From the NCBI RefSeq assembly GCF_900157305.1, contig NZ_LS974202.1:434001-498000 (forward strand): a stretch of DNA of 64,000 bases. Direction: 5' to 3'. This DNA comes from Mesotoga infera. GTDB taxonomy: Bacteria > Thermotogota > Thermotogae > Petrotogales > Kosmotogaceae. A program made the translations under genes and the position numbers. The first letter of the stretch is position 1. Every line of letters begins with the position of its first letter. Below the pieces are notes generated by a model that was not told where the DNA came from, searched no databases, and worked only from the letters and a program-made list of their open reading frames with translations. This document shows positions 4,462 through 11,023 of this stretch, in pieces.

Positions 4462-6387
4462 CTAGATCTTGCGTTTCAACTTGAGGATCGTAATAGACAG
4501 TCCCAGAGCGAGCATCGAGGCGTATATGGTGATGGTTTCGCTCCGGGTCAAATCGTCTGACTCTTCGGGAATTTGTGCAGCTTCTTCCCTCGCCCTGCCT
4601 CCGATATTGAAATCGGGCATCTCCGCCGGGGGTTGCATGTTTGGCCTCCCCTCGGCCATGCCACCAGCATCGGCAGGCATTCCTTGAGGAGCTTGCATAT
4701 CGGGGGGTTGCATATTCTGCACTCTTTCCTCCCTCGCGGCCCCGAACCTCATAGCGTCGGGATTTTGAAAGTTACGGTTCTGAACGACGATGTTTGCCAT
4801 CTGACTTTCCATTTTCAGAAGTATCCATTCCCTCATTTGAGCGGTAATTTCATGGCCTTTTACCACTGTGATTTCTTCTTCCGTAGAACCGACTGACCCA
4901 GTACCCGTCGCCTCGCCAGTCTCACTCGACGCGGTGCTCTCCCATTCTTTTATCAACTGGACGAGCGTTTCCTCGGGAAGCATCTCGAGAGGATCGATAT
5001 TCTCTGCATTCCTGTTGTTCCTCAAGGGCATCGCGTTAACCGGAGCATTCAAGCCCTCGTTGTCGGCCACGGGAATTCTTGAGAAAGAAATGTTCGCCGT
5101 ATCAGATCCATCGCTTTTGGAGGGAAGCTCCCCGCTAAGTTGCTTTAAGATCGCTTCTACTCTTACACTGTTGTAGTCGATCAGTCCTGAGCTCCGACCG
5201 TCAGTAGAATTGAAGGAGGCCAGGAATTGCTCGTACGAATACAAAGCCGTGGGGTCGTTCTTGACGTACGGATCGATCATCGCAGCGACTTCTTCGACCC
5301 GGCTATTGAAGAGTTCATCGTTCAGATAGCCGTCTATTATCCGCCGAAGATATTCATGGTATCTTTCCAGGTACTCTTCATTTGCCAGCAGCCTGTTCAC
5401 TATCGGAAGTGAAGCCATATTGACGGCCGGAGAATCTATGTAGAAAGTGTCGCCGCTTCCTCTGGCCCCGCCGAATCCCCCGAATCCCCCGAAGGCCATA
5501 TTGAAGTCCCAGGGTATCATCACGAATCGGCCGTTGTTGTCATAAAGATAGTAGTTGTGGCTCATTCCTCCCAGTATCGAGTCCATGCTCCCGGCGGCCA
5601 TACAAAGAGCGTAATACTTGAGAAAGGAGTCTATGTCCAGTACTTTTTCAAGCTCCTCGTAGGTACCTTCCTGCAAAACCTTCAACATCTCCACAATTGA
5701 GCTTCTGTCGCTAGTTTTCTCGTTGGTTTGAAGGGCAAGACCGGGGTAGCTTTGCGGATCGTCGTCTATGTAAACCAGGTTGGCACCGGTGCCTTCCGGT
5801 TTGTAAAGGTCTCCGTAACCGTAAGCAAAGTGATCGCGCACGAAGTTTTCATCAATGTTTTCGACTCCCAGATAAAGCCCGAAGTACTGGCCGTTTATAT
5901 ACAACGCGACGTAAGTCGTCCTCGGAGTTTCTAGACCAAGCATTTCCGAAATCTCGTACGTCAGGTACTCTCTCATGAACGAGGGGTCGGAGAAACCGTT
6001 GTTGAGGTTTATCTTGGTTATTCCGAAAAGGTTCTGACCCTTGATATAGTGGTTGAAGTCGAGCTTGAAGCTGTAACGGTTAGAAGTGGAGTTTCTTGCC
6101 TGTGCAAGCGAGGAGTTGCCTTTGGGTCTGATCCCGACGTTTTTTATGCGATAGCCGTTGTAAACTACGTTACACATGATGTATTCTTCCATACGCGCCT
6201 GATCGAACATATTCTGAAGCTCGGCCTCGTCAACCTCTATATATACATCTATAACTCTGTGGTGAGGGAAAAGAACGGCGTCCGTCGGATTTCTGACAGT
6301 CTGCGGATCTCCCTCGAAGGCACCGAAAAAGATCACTGTCAGTAAGCCAAACAATATCAATCCCGACACCTTTAAGAACTTTCTCAT
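4462..6387 (-). CDS. cotH: CotH kinase family protein
   Basis: 641 residues: N-terminal signal or anchor (1-24), CotH domain about 40-400, low-complexity Met/Pro/Gln/Ala-rich stretch about 545-610, and a C-terminal membrane helix ending KLKRKI. CotH proteins are atypical protein kinases, first known from spore coat. The hallmark pieces are visible: RPKGNSS, the substrate-side region NLNNGFSDPSFMREYLTYE, and MIPWDFNMAFGG, the metal-binding Asp-Phe-Asn region. A glycine-rich GGFGGFGGARG follows it. The location should be outside the cytoplasmic membrane. It is the last gene of an operon with DUF4956 and VTC proteins, a trio known in many bacteria. The target is unknown; autophosphorylation or surface protein phosphorylation are possibilities. 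Confidence 0.92.
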   Translation of the reverse strand: MRKFLKVSGLILFGLLTVIFFGAFEGDPQTVRNPTDAVLFPHHRVIDVYIEVDEAELQNMFDQARMEEYIMCNVVYNGYRIKNVGIRPKGNSSLAQARNSTSNRYSFKLDFNHYIKGQNLFGITKINLNNGFSDPSFMREYLTYEISEMLGLETPRTTYVALYINGQYFGLYLGVENIDENFVRDHFAYGYGDLYKPEGTGANLVYIDDDPQSYPGLALQTNEKTSDRSSIVEMLKVLQEGTYEELEKVLDIDSFLKYYALCMAAGSMDSILGGMSHNYYLYDNNGRFVMIPWDFNMAFGGFGGFGGARGSGDTFYIDSPAVNMASLPIVNRLLANEEYLERYHEYLRRIIDGYLNDELFNSRVEEVAAMIDPYVKNDPTALYSYEQFLASFNSTDGRSSGLIDYNSVRVEAILKQLSGELPSKSDGSDTANISFSRIPVADNEGLNAPVNAMPLRNNRNAENIDPLEMLPEETLVQLIKEWESTASSETGEATGTGSVGSTEEEITVVKGHEITAQMREWILLKMESQMANIVVQNRNFQNPDAMRFGAAREERVQNMQPPDMQAPQGMPADAGGMAEGRPNMQPPAEMPDFNIGGRAREEAAQIPEESDDLTRSETITIYASMLALGLSITILKLKRKI

Positions 6388-6399
6388 ACCATCGCCCCG

Positions 6400-7080
6400 C
6401 TAAGCAGCGTAATCACCGTTGTAACTTATAAGAACGGCGTTCGATACGCTGTCGATTGATTTGAGTTCATTGATGAAATCAATTTCCCCGTTTTTGATGC
6501 GCAATTCCACAGAAAGTTCGATATTTTCCCCCGTGACCGTTTTCGATTTAATGTTGTACCTTTTGACCTTGTCCTTCAGCTTTTCAAGTATCGCCTTCTC
6601 GGCTTCTGAATTTAAGTAGTCCAGCAGAAGTATGTAGGGCGATGTCTGTGACTTGAAGTTGGCGAAAACAAGAAGGATTATGCCGATGATCACCGAGCCC
6701 ATAACCGCGAGCAGATAAAAAGAGGCGCCCGTGACTATCCCCACGGCAATAGCCCAGAACATGAAGACTATGTCCATCGGGTCTTTAATAGCGGTTCTGA
6801 ACCTCACGATACTTAGAGCGCCCACCATTCCCAGCGAAAGCACGATGTTGGTCGTCACGGCCATTATTACCAGGGAGGTAACCATGGCTATCATGACCAG
6901 CGATACGTTGAAACTCTTGGTGTACATTATTCCCTGGAAGGTCCTCTTATATACCTGAAAGATGAAAATACCGATGAGAAAGGTTATGAGCAGTGTTATC
7001 GCCGTATCGGCAGCCGATATCTGCGATGCCGAGAAGTTTTCCAGAAAACTGTTTTTGAATATGTCTTTGAATGTCTCCAT
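6400..7080 (-). CDS. DUF4956 membrane protein
   Basis: 226 residues with about four membrane helices between residues 20 and 145 (for example ITLLITFLIGIFIFQVY and VIIGIILLVFANF), then a soluble alpha/beta C-terminal domain. The segment GMVGALSIVRFRTAIKDPMD is the DUF4956 signature between helices. The family is usually encoded beside VTC-domain polyphosphate polymerases, as here (13 bases from VTC, 12 bases from CotH). It may form the membrane part of a polyphosphate or phosphorylated-polymer complex. Family assignment is firm; biochemistry is unknown. Confidence 0.9.
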   Translation of the reverse strand: METFKDIFKNSFLENFSASQISAADTAITLLITFLIGIFIFQVYKRTFQGIMYTKSFNVSLVMIAMVTSLVIMAVTTNIVLSLGMVGALSIVRFRTAIKDPMDIVFMFWAIAVGIVTGASFYLLAVMGSVIIGIILLVFANFKSQTSPYILLLDYLNSEAEKAILEKLKDKVKRYNIKSKTVTGENIELSVELRIKNGEIDFINELKSIDSVSNAVLISYNGDYAA

Positions 7081-7093
7081 GCCTATCCTCCTA

Positions 7094-7786
7094 TTAATAC
7101 AAATAGTTGTATTTTCTGCCTATTACATATTTGGATGCGCTGCTCCTGAACCTTCCAATACTCTGAACGATGTTTTTTATGTGAGAGGGAAAGAATCCGT
7201 CGTACTTGATCTCGAGTATCATGAGATCGCTCCCGGAGCATGTGAAGGAACCGTTCCTGTCGAAGATATCTAGATTGTTGTTGCCCGTCGATAGATTCCT
7301 GTCAAAGGTAATTCTCAGGTTGGCCGCTCTGAGACAGTAAGCCTCGCGATTGTAGCGAACCAGTACTTTTGGTTTCAAAGTTCTGGTCTTTATTCCTTCG
7401 TAGAAATCTATGAACTCGTACGGTCTTTCCTCCAATAAGAAGGAAGCCCGGCCTTTCATTATCTCTTCGTATTCGTCTCTGTAAATGATACGGCTGACCT
7501 TATGAGTCAGGTCTCCGTTTCTGGTCTTCTTTTCCAGCTTGATAACGCTATCGCTGAAGTTGTATATCCGTATCCTGTATTTAGTTCTGTTGTTTGTTCC
7601 ACTGATTTTCTCGCGGTATGCCGAGTTGTAGATGTCGTCGAAATACAGACTGATTATTTCGTAGTCGCCTTTACCGTTGCCGTTTCGATCGACCTCCATG
7701 ATGTGCCCGATCTTGCTCTTGATAGAGAGATAATCGAAATAGTTTATATGATACTTGAGTTCGTGCCTTCCCCTGATCTCTTCCAT
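7094..7786 (-). CDS. VTC-domain polyphosphate polymerase-like protein
   Basis: 230 residues, essentially one VTC domain, the tunnel-shaped fold that in yeast Vtc4 makes polyphosphate from ATP. Expected basic tunnel residues are present: RHELKY near the N-terminus, KYRIRIY, KLEKKTR, KPKVLVRYNREAY, and the metal-binding LEIKYDG near the end. It lacks SPX and membrane domains, as is normal in bacteria. GGAGG lies before the ATG. First gene of the leftward operon. Its promoter faces the PhoB-like regulator gene across a symmetric operator, which fits control by phosphate. Confidence 0.92.
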   Translation of the reverse strand: MEEIRGRHELKYHINYFDYLSIKSKIGHIMEVDRNGNGKGDYEIISLYFDDIYNSAYREKISGTNNRTKYRIRIYNFSDSVIKLEKKTRNGDLTHKVSRIIYRDEYEEIMKGRASFLLEERPYEFIDFYEGIKTRTLKPKVLVRYNREAYCLRAANLRITFDRNLSTGNNNLDIFDRNGSFTCSGSDLMILEIKYDGFFPSHIKNIVQSIGRFRSSASKYVIGRKYNYLY

Positions 7787-7814
7787 TTGGTTCCTCCATT
7801 TTCATTGTCGATCG

Positions 7815-7820
7815 ATTTTA
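7815..7820 (-). promoter_or_regulatory. -10 element of the VTC/DUF4956/CotH operon
   Basis: TAAAAT on the minus strand, separated by exactly 9 bases from the left edge of the symmetric operator at 7830-7872. There is no -35 hexamer; the operator occupies that place, as in Pho-activated promoters. Leader of about 20 bases to the VTC start. Confidence 0.55.
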
Positions 7821-7829
7821 AGTAGCCTG

Positions 7830-7872
7830 TGTCACAGAATTATCACAGCTGCTCTGTGATCGATTTGTGACA
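7830..7872. promoter_or_regulatory. Mirror-symmetric Pho-box-like operator
   Basis: TGTCACA(5)ATCACAG(5)CTGTGAT(5)TGTGACA: each half carries two TCACA units 11 bp apart, and the second half is the exact inverse of the first around position 7851. Eleven-base direct repeats just upstream of a -10 box are the layout of PhoB/PhoP boxes. It lies between the polyphosphate operon and a PhoB-like regulator, so each half would activate one direction. The identification is inferred; the symmetry is directly visible. Confidence 0.7.
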
Positions 7873-7881
7873 TAGCGATAC

Positions 7882-7887
7882 TAGAAT
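7882..7887 (+). promoter_or_regulatory. -10 element of the response regulator/kinase operon
   Basis: TAGAAT, 9 bases from the right edge of the operator, the same distance as on the other side. No -35 hexamer is seen. GGGAGGT lies before the ATG at 7914. Confidence 0.5.
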
Positions 7888-7913
7888 AAAGTTATACCGG
7901 ACAGGGAGGTCGT

Positions 7914-8582
7914 ATGTTGAAAATCCTCTTCGCCGACGATGAAAGAAATATGCGGATACTGGTGTCCGATTTTCTCGAAATGGAAGGCTATAAGGTACTT
8001 CTGGCGGTTGATGGCGAGGAAGCTCTCCAGAAGTTTTATGAAAACCCCGATCTATCTCTCATCATTCTGGATATAATGATGCCGCGTATGAGTGGTATAG
8101 AAGTTCTCGAAGAAATCAGGGAGAGATGCCATATTCCAGTCATAATGCTCACCGCGAAATCTGCCGAAACCGACGAATTGGAAGGCTTCCAGTGTGGAGC
8201 AGACGAATACATATCCAAGCCCTTCAGTCCTAGAATACTCGTGGCCAGAGTGAATACGCTACTCAGGAGGAGTTATCCGATGCAGAAGGAAACGAAGATC
8301 GGAGTTCTTCATGTAAAACCTTCCAGTATGGAAGTTTACGTCAACGACAGGAGAATTGTCCTAAGTCGCACCGAGTTCAACCTTCTCAGCTGTTTTGTCG
8401 CCAACAGTGGAATAACGCTCACAAGGGACCAGCTCCTAGACAGCGTATGGGGATACGATTACCAGGGTACCGATAGAACAGTCGATACTCACATAAACAG
8501 ATTGAGATCGAAGTTGCAGGAAGCGAGCGAGTACATAGAAACTATCAGGGGGTACGGTTACAGGTTCGGGGTTCGCCAATGA
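7914..8582 (+). CDS. OmpR/PhoB-family response regulator
   Basis: 222 residues. Receiver domain 1-118: acidic pair in FADDERN, phospho-acceptor Asp in IILDIMMPRMSG (about residue 53), Thr in MLTAKSA, Lys in ISKPFSP. Winged-helix DNA-binding domain 128-222: LSRTEFNLL, RTVDTHINRLRSKL, IRGYGYRF. It overlaps the kinase gene by 4 bases (ATGA), so the two are translationally coupled. The upstream direct repeats of 11-bp period are what a PhoB-type dimer binds, suggesting autoregulation. PhoB is the best guess because of the neighbouring polyphosphate and phosphate-transport genes, but the subgroup cannot be proven from sequence alone. Confidence 0.93.
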   Translation: MLKILFADDERNMRILVSDFLEMEGYKVLLAVDGEEALQKFYENPDLSLIILDIMMPRMSGIEVLEEIRERCHIPVIMLTAKSAETDELEGFQCGADEYISKPFSPRILVARVNTLLRRSYPMQKETKIGVLHVKPSSMEVYVNDRRIVLSRTEFNLLSCFVANSGITLTRDQLLDSVWGYDYQGTDRTVDTHINRLRSKLQEASEYIETIRGYGYRFGVRQ

Positions 8583-10063
8583 GCTCAATTCGCAGGAAGC
8601 TCTTCTTACAGATTCTTGCAGTTATACTCTTTATCATTTCGACATTGTGGCTCGCAAATACCTTCATGCTTGAACCGTACTATATGAAAACGAAAAAGGA
8701 TCAGTTGATCAAAGCCAGGAATAGTATCAATTCCTTCGGAGTCTCGGATTATCAGGAAAAAGTCGATTTTCTTGTCGATATGGGCAACGAGCTCAACGCC
8801 ATGATTCTCATTTTTGATGGTTCGGGCGAGCCGGTCTATACGACGCACATTATTCCACAGGAGCCCGGTGGTTTAATACCCGGGATAGACACCAGAAGGA
8901 TACCTCCATCCAGGAAACCTCTCGAAACGGTTTACAGCGAAAAAATAGATTCTGGCACTGAAATCGAGCTTACTATAGACAGAATGGGAGAACAGGGGTT
9001 TCTAAGCCTGAAATCCAGGCTCGATAACGGCTTCACCCTTCATATGAGTATCCCTGTGTCCTCCATCGAGAGCAGCGTCTCGATCGTAAACGGCTTTCTT
9101 CTCGTAGTTGGACTGTTTTCCTCGGCGCTGGCTCTGGTTATAGCCTTCATCATTTCAAGAAGGTTCACGGGTTCCATCCTTCACATGAACAGAATCACCA
9201 GAAAGATGAAGGATCTGGATTTCTCCGAAAAGTGTGAAATCAAATCTAAAGACGAGTTTGGACAGCTTGCCAGTAGTATAGACGATCTTTCGGAATCCCT
9301 CGATATGACGCTGAAAAAACTCAGCCAGAAGAACGAGGCACTCAAAAAGGAGATAGAACACAAAAAAGTAGTTGAAGAAATGAGAAAGCAGTTCATAACC
9401 AACGTCTCTCATGAATTAAAGACACCCCTGTCGCTTATTCAGGGCTATGCCGAAGGATTGGAACTAAACATAGCCTCAAGCGACGAAAAGCGGAACTTCT
9501 ACTGTGGAGTGATCAAGGAAGAGACGGCGAAAATGGGCAGGCTCGTGAAGGACCTACTCGATCTCTCGATGATGGAAACGGGCAATTTAACACTCTATAA
9601 GAGCGAATTCTGCATCGATGAGCTGATAAAAAGGTTGATGGGAAAGTTCGAAAAGGTCTTTCTAAAAAAAGGAATCGAGCCGAAGTATGCAGAGGGTGAA
9701 AGAACGTTTGTCTATGCCGATTCTTTCAGGACGGAGCAGATACTAACCAACTACCTGAACAACGCCATTTACCATGTCGATGAAAGAAAGGAAATTTTTG
9801 TTAGAAAAGACATTCAAGAGAATTTGGTGATTGTGCGGGTGTTCAACTCAGGCCAGAACATACCCCAGGAAGAAGGCGAGAAGATCTGGACCAGTTTTTA
9901 TAGAGCCGACAATGCCAGAACAAGGGAAGAGGAGAGGTACGGCATAGGGCTTTCGATAGTCAAGGCCATCTGCGATCTGGATGGCAAAAGTTGTGGGTTT
10001 GTGAACCTTCCAGATGGTGTGGAGTTTTTCTTCGAGTTGGAAAGGGTAAAAAACCCGGATTAG
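8579..10063 (+). CDS. HAMP-domain sensor histidine kinase (PhoR-like candidate)
   Basis: 494 residues: TM1 about 9-30, extracytoplasmic sensor about 31-163, TM2 about 164-190, HAMP 190-245, coiled coil to 270, HisKA with the phospho-accepting His in NVSHELKTPLSLI (about residue 279), HATPase with NYLNNAIYHV (N box) and RYGIGLSIVKAI (G box). It phosphorylates the regulator encoded just upstream. The sensor domain is of moderate size, without a PAS domain I can see, unlike classical PhoR. The 3' end overlaps the convergent phosphate permease gene by 4 bases. Confidence 0.92.
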   Translation: MSSIRRKLFLQILAVILFIISTLWLANTFMLEPYYMKTKKDQLIKARNSINSFGVSDYQEKVDFLVDMGNELNAMILIFDGSGEPVYTTHIIPQEPGGLIPGIDTRRIPPSRKPLETVYSEKIDSGTEIELTIDRMGEQGFLSLKSRLDNGFTLHMSIPVSSIESSVSIVNGFLLVVGLFSSALALVIAFIISRRFTGSILHMNRITRKMKDLDFSEKCEIKSKDEFGQLASSIDDLSESLDMTLKKLSQKNEALKKEIEHKKVVEEMRKQFITNVSHELKTPLSLIQGYAEGLELNIASSDEKRNFYCGVIKEETAKMGRLVKDLLDLSMMETGNLTLYKSEFCIDELIKRLMGKFEKVFLKKGIEPKYAEGERTFVYADSFRTEQILTNYLNNAIYHVDERKEIFVRKDIQENLVIVRVFNSGQNIPQEEGEKIWTSFYRADNARTREEERYGIGLSIVKAICDLDGKSCGFVNLPDGVEFFFELERVKNPD

Positions 10064-10992
10064 TTCAATCCGAAAAAATTAAAGATAGCGAACACTGCAG
10101 CCGACACACAGCCTGCGATAAGCGGAGTTTGCAGCCAGCCCAGCAAGATCCTCCGGATCAGGCGGCCGTCGAAGTTTCTCGAACCTCGGGCCAATCCCAC
10201 ACCTACAACGGCCCCGACTATGGCCTGAGATACTGAGACCGGAACTCCTATATAAGCGTAAATGAGAACGGTGAGGCTCTGCGCCAGAATAGCCACGACA
10301 GAGGAAAAGGCTTCCAGGGAGACTATCCTCTTGCCCACCGTGTACATGACTTTCTTGCTGAAGATTATCGCGCCCGCAGCGATGCTCAACCCTCCTATTA
10401 GTGCGGCTTCGTCGACCGATATGCTTCCAACGAAAGTACCGGTAATATTAGCCACGTTGTTGGCTCCCAGAGCAAAGGAACCGAGAATTCCAATCAAGAT
10501 GGCGAGAACCTTGAGCGTTATATCCTGAACCACTATTGATCTTATCCTGCGAAAGAACCTAGCTACAATACCGTAAAGCACGTATCCGAGCAGGGCTGCG
10601 CCCAGAGGAGTGGTTATCCAGCAAATAAAGATCTTCATAACCACGAACCAGTCGATGTTTCCATTGAGAAGACCGATACCCATGATCGCGCCCACTACGG
10701 CCTGAGAGGAGGAAACAGGCAGACCGAATTGATTCAGGATTATCACAGACAAACCCGCAGCGGCCGACACGATCGCCGCCGTAACGAGAGTCTGGCTGCT
10801 CAAACTCGCAAGAGTTTCCAGTCCGTTCCTGCCGCCGATCATCGCCCCGGCGATTATCGAAAAACTCGCGGTTATCGCCGCGAACCTGTAATTAAGGAGC
10901 CCGTTGGTAACAGTTGTTCCGTATATGTTGGCTGCGTCGTTTCTTCCGAGGGCCCAGCCGAAGAAAACCGCAGGCAAAAAGGTTAAAATCAA
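10060..10992 (-). CDS. pit: PiT-family inorganic phosphate transporter
   Basis: About 310 residues, all membrane. The two PiT signatures, one per half, are visible: GRNDAANIYGTTV near the N-terminus and GANNVANITGTFVG in the second half, in a duplicated fold with about ten helices. It imports phosphate by cation symport. TTG at 10992 is preferred because GAAGGGAT lies just upstream and the TTG at 11010 is only about 7 bases from the predicted transcription start; the longer form adds six residues. Convergent with the sensor kinase. With the polyphosphate operon, it completes a phosphate theme. Confidence 0.9.
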   Translation of the reverse strand: MILTFLPAVFFGWALGRNDAANIYGTTVTNGLLNYRFAAITASFSIIAGAMIGGRNGLETLASLSSQTLVTAAIVSAAAGLSVIILNQFGLPVSSSQAVVGAIMGIGLLNGNIDWFVVMKIFICWITTPLGAALLGYVLYGIVARFFRRIRSIVVQDITLKVLAILIGILGSFALGANNVANITGTFVGSISVDEAALIGGLSIAAGAIIFSKKVMYTVGKRIVSLEAFSSVVAILAQSLTVLIYAYIGVPVSVSQAIVGAVVGVGLARGSRNFDGRLIRRILLGWLQTPLIAGCVSAAVFAIFNFFGLN

Positions 10993-11023
10993 CTCTATCC
11001 CTTCATCCAAAGTAATGAATAGT

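Follow-up and report, generated by a model that had tools for sequence, protein, structure and literature searches.

A 43-bp mirror-image element lies between a VTC-domain gene and the divergently oriented gene of an OmpR/PhoB-family response regulator in Mesotoga infera. We estimate a probability of about three in four that the adjacent regulator uses it to activate its own operon and the VTC-DUF4956-CotH operon through two OmpR/PhoB-type boxes placed back to back, a reading drawn from sequence and conservation. The window analysed, a stretch of 64,000 nucleotides, comes from a genome contained in a single 2.97-Mb contig, and its relevant features are listed in Table 1.

Two direct-repeat boxes form a mirror pair

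The element reads TGTCACA-GAATT-ATCACAG-CTGCT-CTGTGAT-CGATT-TGTGACA, agreeing base for base with the arrangement TGTCACA-N5-ATCACAG-N5-CTGTGAT-N5-TGTGACA given by a first-pass annotation of this DNA. That annotation also described the two halves as exact inverses, which is accurate for the repeat units (14/14 positions) and inaccurate for the within-half spacers, GAATT and CGATT, and for the centre; pairing across the 43-mer amounts to 15/21 positions. On either side, exactly 9 bases separate the element edge from a -10 hexamer, TAAAAT on the minus strand and TAGAAT on the plus strand, and the reported absence of a -35 was borne out. No sigma-70-like promoter was found within 7780-7920; the best -35 match was 2-3/6 and was not conserved in any of the eight promoters of the four species described below, and an extended -10 was found at neither promoter. 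With start positions placed from the -10 hexamers, the predicted leaders measure about 20 nt on both sides and carry good ribosome-binding sites.

Table 1. Features of the divergent region, in window coordinates
Feature	Position	Strand	Remarks and basis
CotH kinase-family protein	4462-6387	minus	
DUF4956/MgtC-like membrane protein	6400-7080	minus	
VTC-domain (polyphosphate-polymerase-like) gene	7094-7786	minus	Pfam VTC, 2e-38
Ribosome-binding site GGAGG before VTC	7793-7797	minus	sequence
-10 hexamer TAAAAT, predicted VTC operon promoter	7820-7815	minus	TAGAAT in G008; sequence, conservation
43-bp mirror operator (putative)	7830-7872	.	two OmpR/PhoB-type direct-repeat boxes back to back; sequence, conservation in four species
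Repeat unit TGTCACA	7830-7836		sequence
Repeat unit ATCACAG	7842-7848		sequence
Repeat unit CTGTGAT	7854-7860		sequence
Repeat unit TGTGACA	7866-7872		sequence
Left box	7830-7848	minus	CTGTGAT-AATT-CTGTGAC-A; predicted to serve the VTC promoter; sequence, conservation
Centre, 5 bp	7849-7853	.	length constant, 0/5 bases invariant
Right box	7854-7872	plus	CTGTGAT-CGAT-TTGTGAC-A; predicted to serve the regulator promoter; conservation, E. coli phoA geometry
-10 hexamer TAGAAT, predicted regulator operon promoter	7882-7887	plus	sequence, conservation
Ribosome-binding site GGGAGG before regulator	7904-7909	plus	sequence
OmpR/PhoB-family response regulator	7914-8582	plus	Pfam Response_reg and Trans_reg_C; presumed binder of the element
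Membrane histidine kinase	8579-10063	plus	extracytoplasmic region, HAMP, HisKA, HATPase
PHO4/PiT-family transporter, short	10060-11010		convergent, after the kinase gene

The mirror element exceeds chance. A score combining the dyad with the 11-bp repeat reached 27 for the element and no more than 21 anywhere else in the window, and its maxima over 30 simulated 64-kb windows were 20-24. The four unit centres fall inside 86 degrees of helix rotation, and all four protomers could therefore share one face of the DNA.

The element is conserved unit by unit in four species

We searched the Kosmotogaceae with a pattern comprising one half and its -10 (20 fixed bases, 3 mismatches allowed), for which about 0.2 matches per genome are expected by our own arithmetic. 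Both sides matched with 0-1 mismatch in four species (G000, G006, G008 and G009), and the other 13 of 17 genomes gave no match. The element with both -10s in place is thus present in 4/10 Mesotoga-group and 4/17 Kosmotogaceae genomes. The first-pass annotation had made its reading depend on the TCACA units being retained in close relatives such as other Mesotoga and Kosmotoga, and retained they are: 27 of the 28 unit columns are invariant across the four species, as are 11/12 columns of the -10 hexamers, compared with 5/10 in the within-half spacers, 6/18 in the N9 stretches, 0/5 in the centre and 11/70 in the leaders (Fisher p ~1e-16 for units and -10s versus leaders, N9 and centre). All eight half-promoters show exactly the same spacing, and the centre has retained its five-base length but not its sequence. 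Since the four species are related, this conservation partly reflects ancestry; the leaders have nevertheless strongly diverged.

Chance, or a purely structural palindrome such as a cruciform, a dispersed repeat, a CRP site or a transcribed hairpin, has hardly any prospect of explaining these data. TCACA palindromes do occur dispersed in two Bacteroidales MAGs; here, however, the element is single-copy, conserved unit by unit and scores beyond the simulation. Because it lies upstream of both -10s, it would not be transcribed from these promoters, and an RNA element was rejected as nothing rose above the Rfam gathering threshold. A CRP/FNR-type site, TGTGA-N6-TCACA, was likewise rejected for its repeat order, since the two TCACA units come before the two TGTGA units. 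The conservation pattern in effect refutes this explanation.

G000/G009 and G008 have different sequences around the module, which therefore looks like an accessory cassette. In G006 (L131:2138-2803) the frame of the regulator gene is interrupted around residue 193, immediately ahead of the recognition helix, so that this copy is either misassembled or a pseudogene, and in G009 a large part of the gene is masked with N.

Position and geometry point to divergent class II activation

Tandem repeats at the -35 region are the usual binding sites of OmpR-family regulators (PMC3413638). The features of such boxes recur here: 7-bp repeats with a 4-bp spacer, giving an 11-bp period, in both halves and all four species; an occupied -35 region with N10 to the -10 in all eight half-promoters; and an OmpR-family regulator gene adjoining the element. 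Repeats at the -35 position with a spacing identical to that of the E. coli phoA promoter support class II activation in both directions. The annotation had likewise read the geometry as that of a PhoB-type activator serving both sides, and this part of its proposal gains support from the phoA spacing, the -10s conserved in four species, the adjoining regulator gene and the co-occurrence of the element with the VTC operon.

In the mechanism that we propose, each box, consisting of two CTGTGAT-like 7-bp repeats separated by 4 bp and ending 10 bp before the -10, would replace the -35. The adjacent regulator, the probable binder, would when phosphorylated occupy each box as a tandem dimer and recruit sigma-70 polymerase in both directions. 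A single signal passing through the membrane kinase could then raise both operons together, and the regulator/kinase operon would thereby be under positive autoregulation. As the signal, phosphate is less likely than a cue from the cell envelope or elsewhere outside the cytoplasm. We infer activation, as opposed to repression, from position. Alternatively, the adjacent regulator could use these sites to repress both promoters or to hold down its own expression, as the sites cover both -35 regions and OmpR-family members can repress from promoter-overlapping sites (PMC4168254). We consider this improbable: the lack of a conserved -35 in eight promoters would leave little basal promoter to repress, and a fixed distance to the -10 is what class II activators typically show.

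Whichever way the element acts, its binder might be another response regulator, for instance the pst-linked one or that at G000:1792069, given that every genome encodes several paralogous regulators of the OmpR family whose recognition helices are similar. These paralogues, however, occur family-wide without the element, while the element, the VTC gene and orthologues of the adjacent regulator (intact or partial) are confined to the same four genomes of the family, which makes a different binder a quite improbable proposition. Genome-wide statements here rest on pattern searches and sequence stretches. Allowing up to 3 mismatches, we counted 83/65 half-sites in the M. infera genome, against 73/60 for the reversed control. 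Just two further full matches turned up, both weak and neither promoter-placed, one overlapping the start of a coding frame and the other lying within or at the edge of opposite-strand genes; pattern searches thus returned no second convincing site in this genome. With half-sites no commoner than in the control and no promoter-placed matches, the adjacent regulator seems dedicated to its divergent pair of operons.

The mirror layout of the proposed divergent activation is a natural example on which to study whether a pair of class II promoters placed back to back is active simultaneously or in competition. More tentatively, and with the odds against it, the four units may constitute one cooperative bidirectional switch, in which two outward-facing dimers around a fixed head-to-head centre would serve two polymerases and tie a VTC-DUF4956-CotH operon independent of Pel obligately to a two-component system of its own, the cassette possibly moving between species as a unit. 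If that were true, the mirrored Butyrivibrio element described below would mean that the layout arose more than once.

A phosphate identity is somewhat disfavoured

The first-pass annotation had called the element a Pho-box pair driving two phosphate operons, a label that stems from the family name and the neighbouring genes. Taken functionally, it would make this a true Pho-regulon element, with a regulator that senses phosphate starvation, and several observations lean that way. The repeats share 12/14 bases with the E. coli phoA box. The best NCBIfam model for the regulator is PhoB (TIGR02154), and its closest solved relative is RegX3, which belongs to the SenX3-RegX3 system that responds to phosphate starvation (PMC7525159). 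The predicted model of the kinase, of low confidence (pLDDT 60) and with a PAS-like mixed fold, weakly matches WalK and the extracytoplasmic PAS domain 3cwf. The VTC profile retrieved the yeast polyphosphate polymerase Vtc4 from the PDB (2.6e-9), where the single sequence found no match, and a PHO4-family transporter gene lies next door.

Against this, the genus has a separate pst-linked regulator/kinase pair. PstB-family matches occurred in every Kosmotogaceae genome searched, with 12/17 passing the PstB cut-off, and the inspected pst loci carry a response regulator gene after pstB and a phoU-like gene, joined in G000 by a PhoR/PnpS-like kinase gene. The regulator beside the element is about 39% identical to the pst-linked one and falls into a separate clade; the two are not orthologues. 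In 11 pst upstream regions no such box was found, the best scores being 0 to 10.6, mostly within those of shuffles, versus 25.5-29.8 for the element halves. The PhoB model score of the adjacent regulator, 211 bits, lies under the cut-off of 296 and is no better than that of another family member; since the pst-linked regulator (score 213) fails too, this shortfall is not decisive. As for the transporter, its best NCBIfam match was the CysP sulfate permease, below the cut-off of that model, and we rejected it as a module member because it is not beside the kinase gene in G006 and sits at other places in relatives. Finally, repeats of this type also serve regulators of non-phosphate systems (PMC4832192, PMC4168254). 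The phosphate identity is therefore unproven and somewhat disfavoured, and we regard a genuine Pho-regulon element as rather unlikely.

The VTC operon lies outside any Pel locus

Among the 17 Kosmotogaceae genomes, VTC family members turned up in the four that bear the element and in no others. Five further Thermotogota genomes with VTC loci have neither an OmpR-family regulator gene beside them nor a TCACA repeat. VTC-domain genes are patchy in Thermotogota as a whole (9/103 genomes), and at the inspected loci they stand next to DUF4956 and often CotH.

CotH, polyphosphate polymerase and DUF4956 have been described as an accessory set at the Pel loci of streptococci and clostridia (PMC7112168). 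In Streptococcus intermedius, mutants of the CotH and MgtC/DUF4956-like genes showed altered Pel levels and less aggregation, and the authors did not find synteny of the three genes beyond the Pel locus in their analysis (PMC12345266). The same three gene families are clustered in Mesotoga; the difference is that the Mesotoga set comes without PelG and is tied to a divergent two-component system. PelG was absent from all 17 Kosmotogaceae genomes. A Pel link was therefore rejected, and the VTC-DUF4956-CotH set of Mesotoga appears to work outside Pel. A seemingly dedicated two-component system tied to such an operon away from any Pel locus is new. The element yields precise, testable promoter predictions for a bacterial operon of the VTC-DUF4956-CotH type, a polyphosphate-polymerase-like set so far discussed as a Pel-locus accessory in streptococci. 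Our guess is that the operon has a role at the envelope or surface; as it lacks PelG and has its own two-component system, learning the cue of the kinase would point to its function.

Related boxes in a wider genome collection

Again by our own arithmetic, chance alone should yield about 0.2 matches to the whole-mirror pattern (20 fixed bases) across the 257-Gb collection. Beyond the Mesotoga relatives, it matched two Bacteroidales MAGs, in both as a dispersed palindrome, one place in Pedobacter and one in Butyrivibrio. The dispersed palindrome, ACGTTTCACATCGCTTTCACA-N7-TGTGAAACGTTTGTGAAACGT, was seen in nine copies in these two Bacteroidales/Prevotellaceae MAGs (L067, L069, L070, L072-L074 and L076-L078).

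The genome of Butyrivibrio sp. RUI266 (G103) contains 24 copies of TGTGA-N6-TGTGA, compared with 5 of the reversed control. About 10 copies of the core TGTGACAGTTCTGTGA or close variants (L079, L162-L178) are followed 11-12 bases on by a -10-like hexamer. Most genes downstream encode proteins that are secreted or belong to the envelope (lipoprotein-like, LysM, Big_2); no pst gene was among those examined. One copy is mirrored, with -10-like hexamers at equal distance on both sides that match at only 4/6 positions each; its minus-side gene encodes a lipoprotein-like hydrolase of the HAD family, which could be a phosphatase. With the -10 at a constant distance of 12 bases, the TGTGACAGTTCTGTGA boxes ahead of these genes look like a large regulon, apparently undescribed. 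They resemble the Mesotoga boxes in repeat, period, fixed distance to the -10 and the presence of one mirror pair, and differ in having many targets and a -10 spacing one base longer. The Butyrivibrio case shows that this class of box works as a regulon signal elsewhere, with no clear phosphate theme.

Comparison with known OmpR-family sites

The right half, read toward the plus promoter, is CTGTGAT-CGAT-TTGTGAC-N10-TAGAAT, and the intergenic region before E. coli phoA (L144, NZ_AP018488.1) contains CTGTCAT-AAAG-TTGTCAC-N10-TATAGT, where we take TATAGT to be the phoA -10. Both have two 7-bp repeats (the 12 of 14 equal bases given above), a 4-bp spacer, 10 bp to the -10 and no -35. They differ in that phoA has one box serving one direction, whereas Mesotoga has two boxes back to back; the core is GA in Mesotoga and CA in phoA, and the Mesotoga regulator gene is not the pst-linked one. 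At the E. coli promoter, PhoB sites overlap the -35 (PMC3348028).

The box of Mycobacterium tuberculosis PhoP, TCACAGC-N4-TCACAGC, requires exactly 4 bp between its 7-bp repeats (PMC4832192). With the same spacer of 4, the left half of the Mesotoga element, TCACAGA-ATTA-TCACAGC, matches it at 13/14 positions, and the right half read on the minus strand, TCACAAA-TCGA-TCACAGA, at 11/14, a likeness of site that implies no orthology between the regulators. PhoP is a different OmpR-family regulator belonging to a non-phosphate system, and to our knowledge its box does not occur as a mirror pair. The WalR/VicR box, TGTWAH-N5-TGTWAH (PMC4168254), has in common with the Mesotoga boxes an 11-bp direct repeat of a TGT-A core and an OmpR-family regulator, but the Mesotoga units TGTGAT and TGTGAC carry G at the W position (position 4) and thus depart from its consensus. 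The AgrR box of Cupriavidus metallidurans (PMC7380067) likewise combines inverted and direct repeats with class II activation, divergent operons and autoregulation; its core is a 6-4-6 inverted repeat of ATTACA, whereas the Mesotoga core consists of tandem boxes, and the inversion joins two of them.
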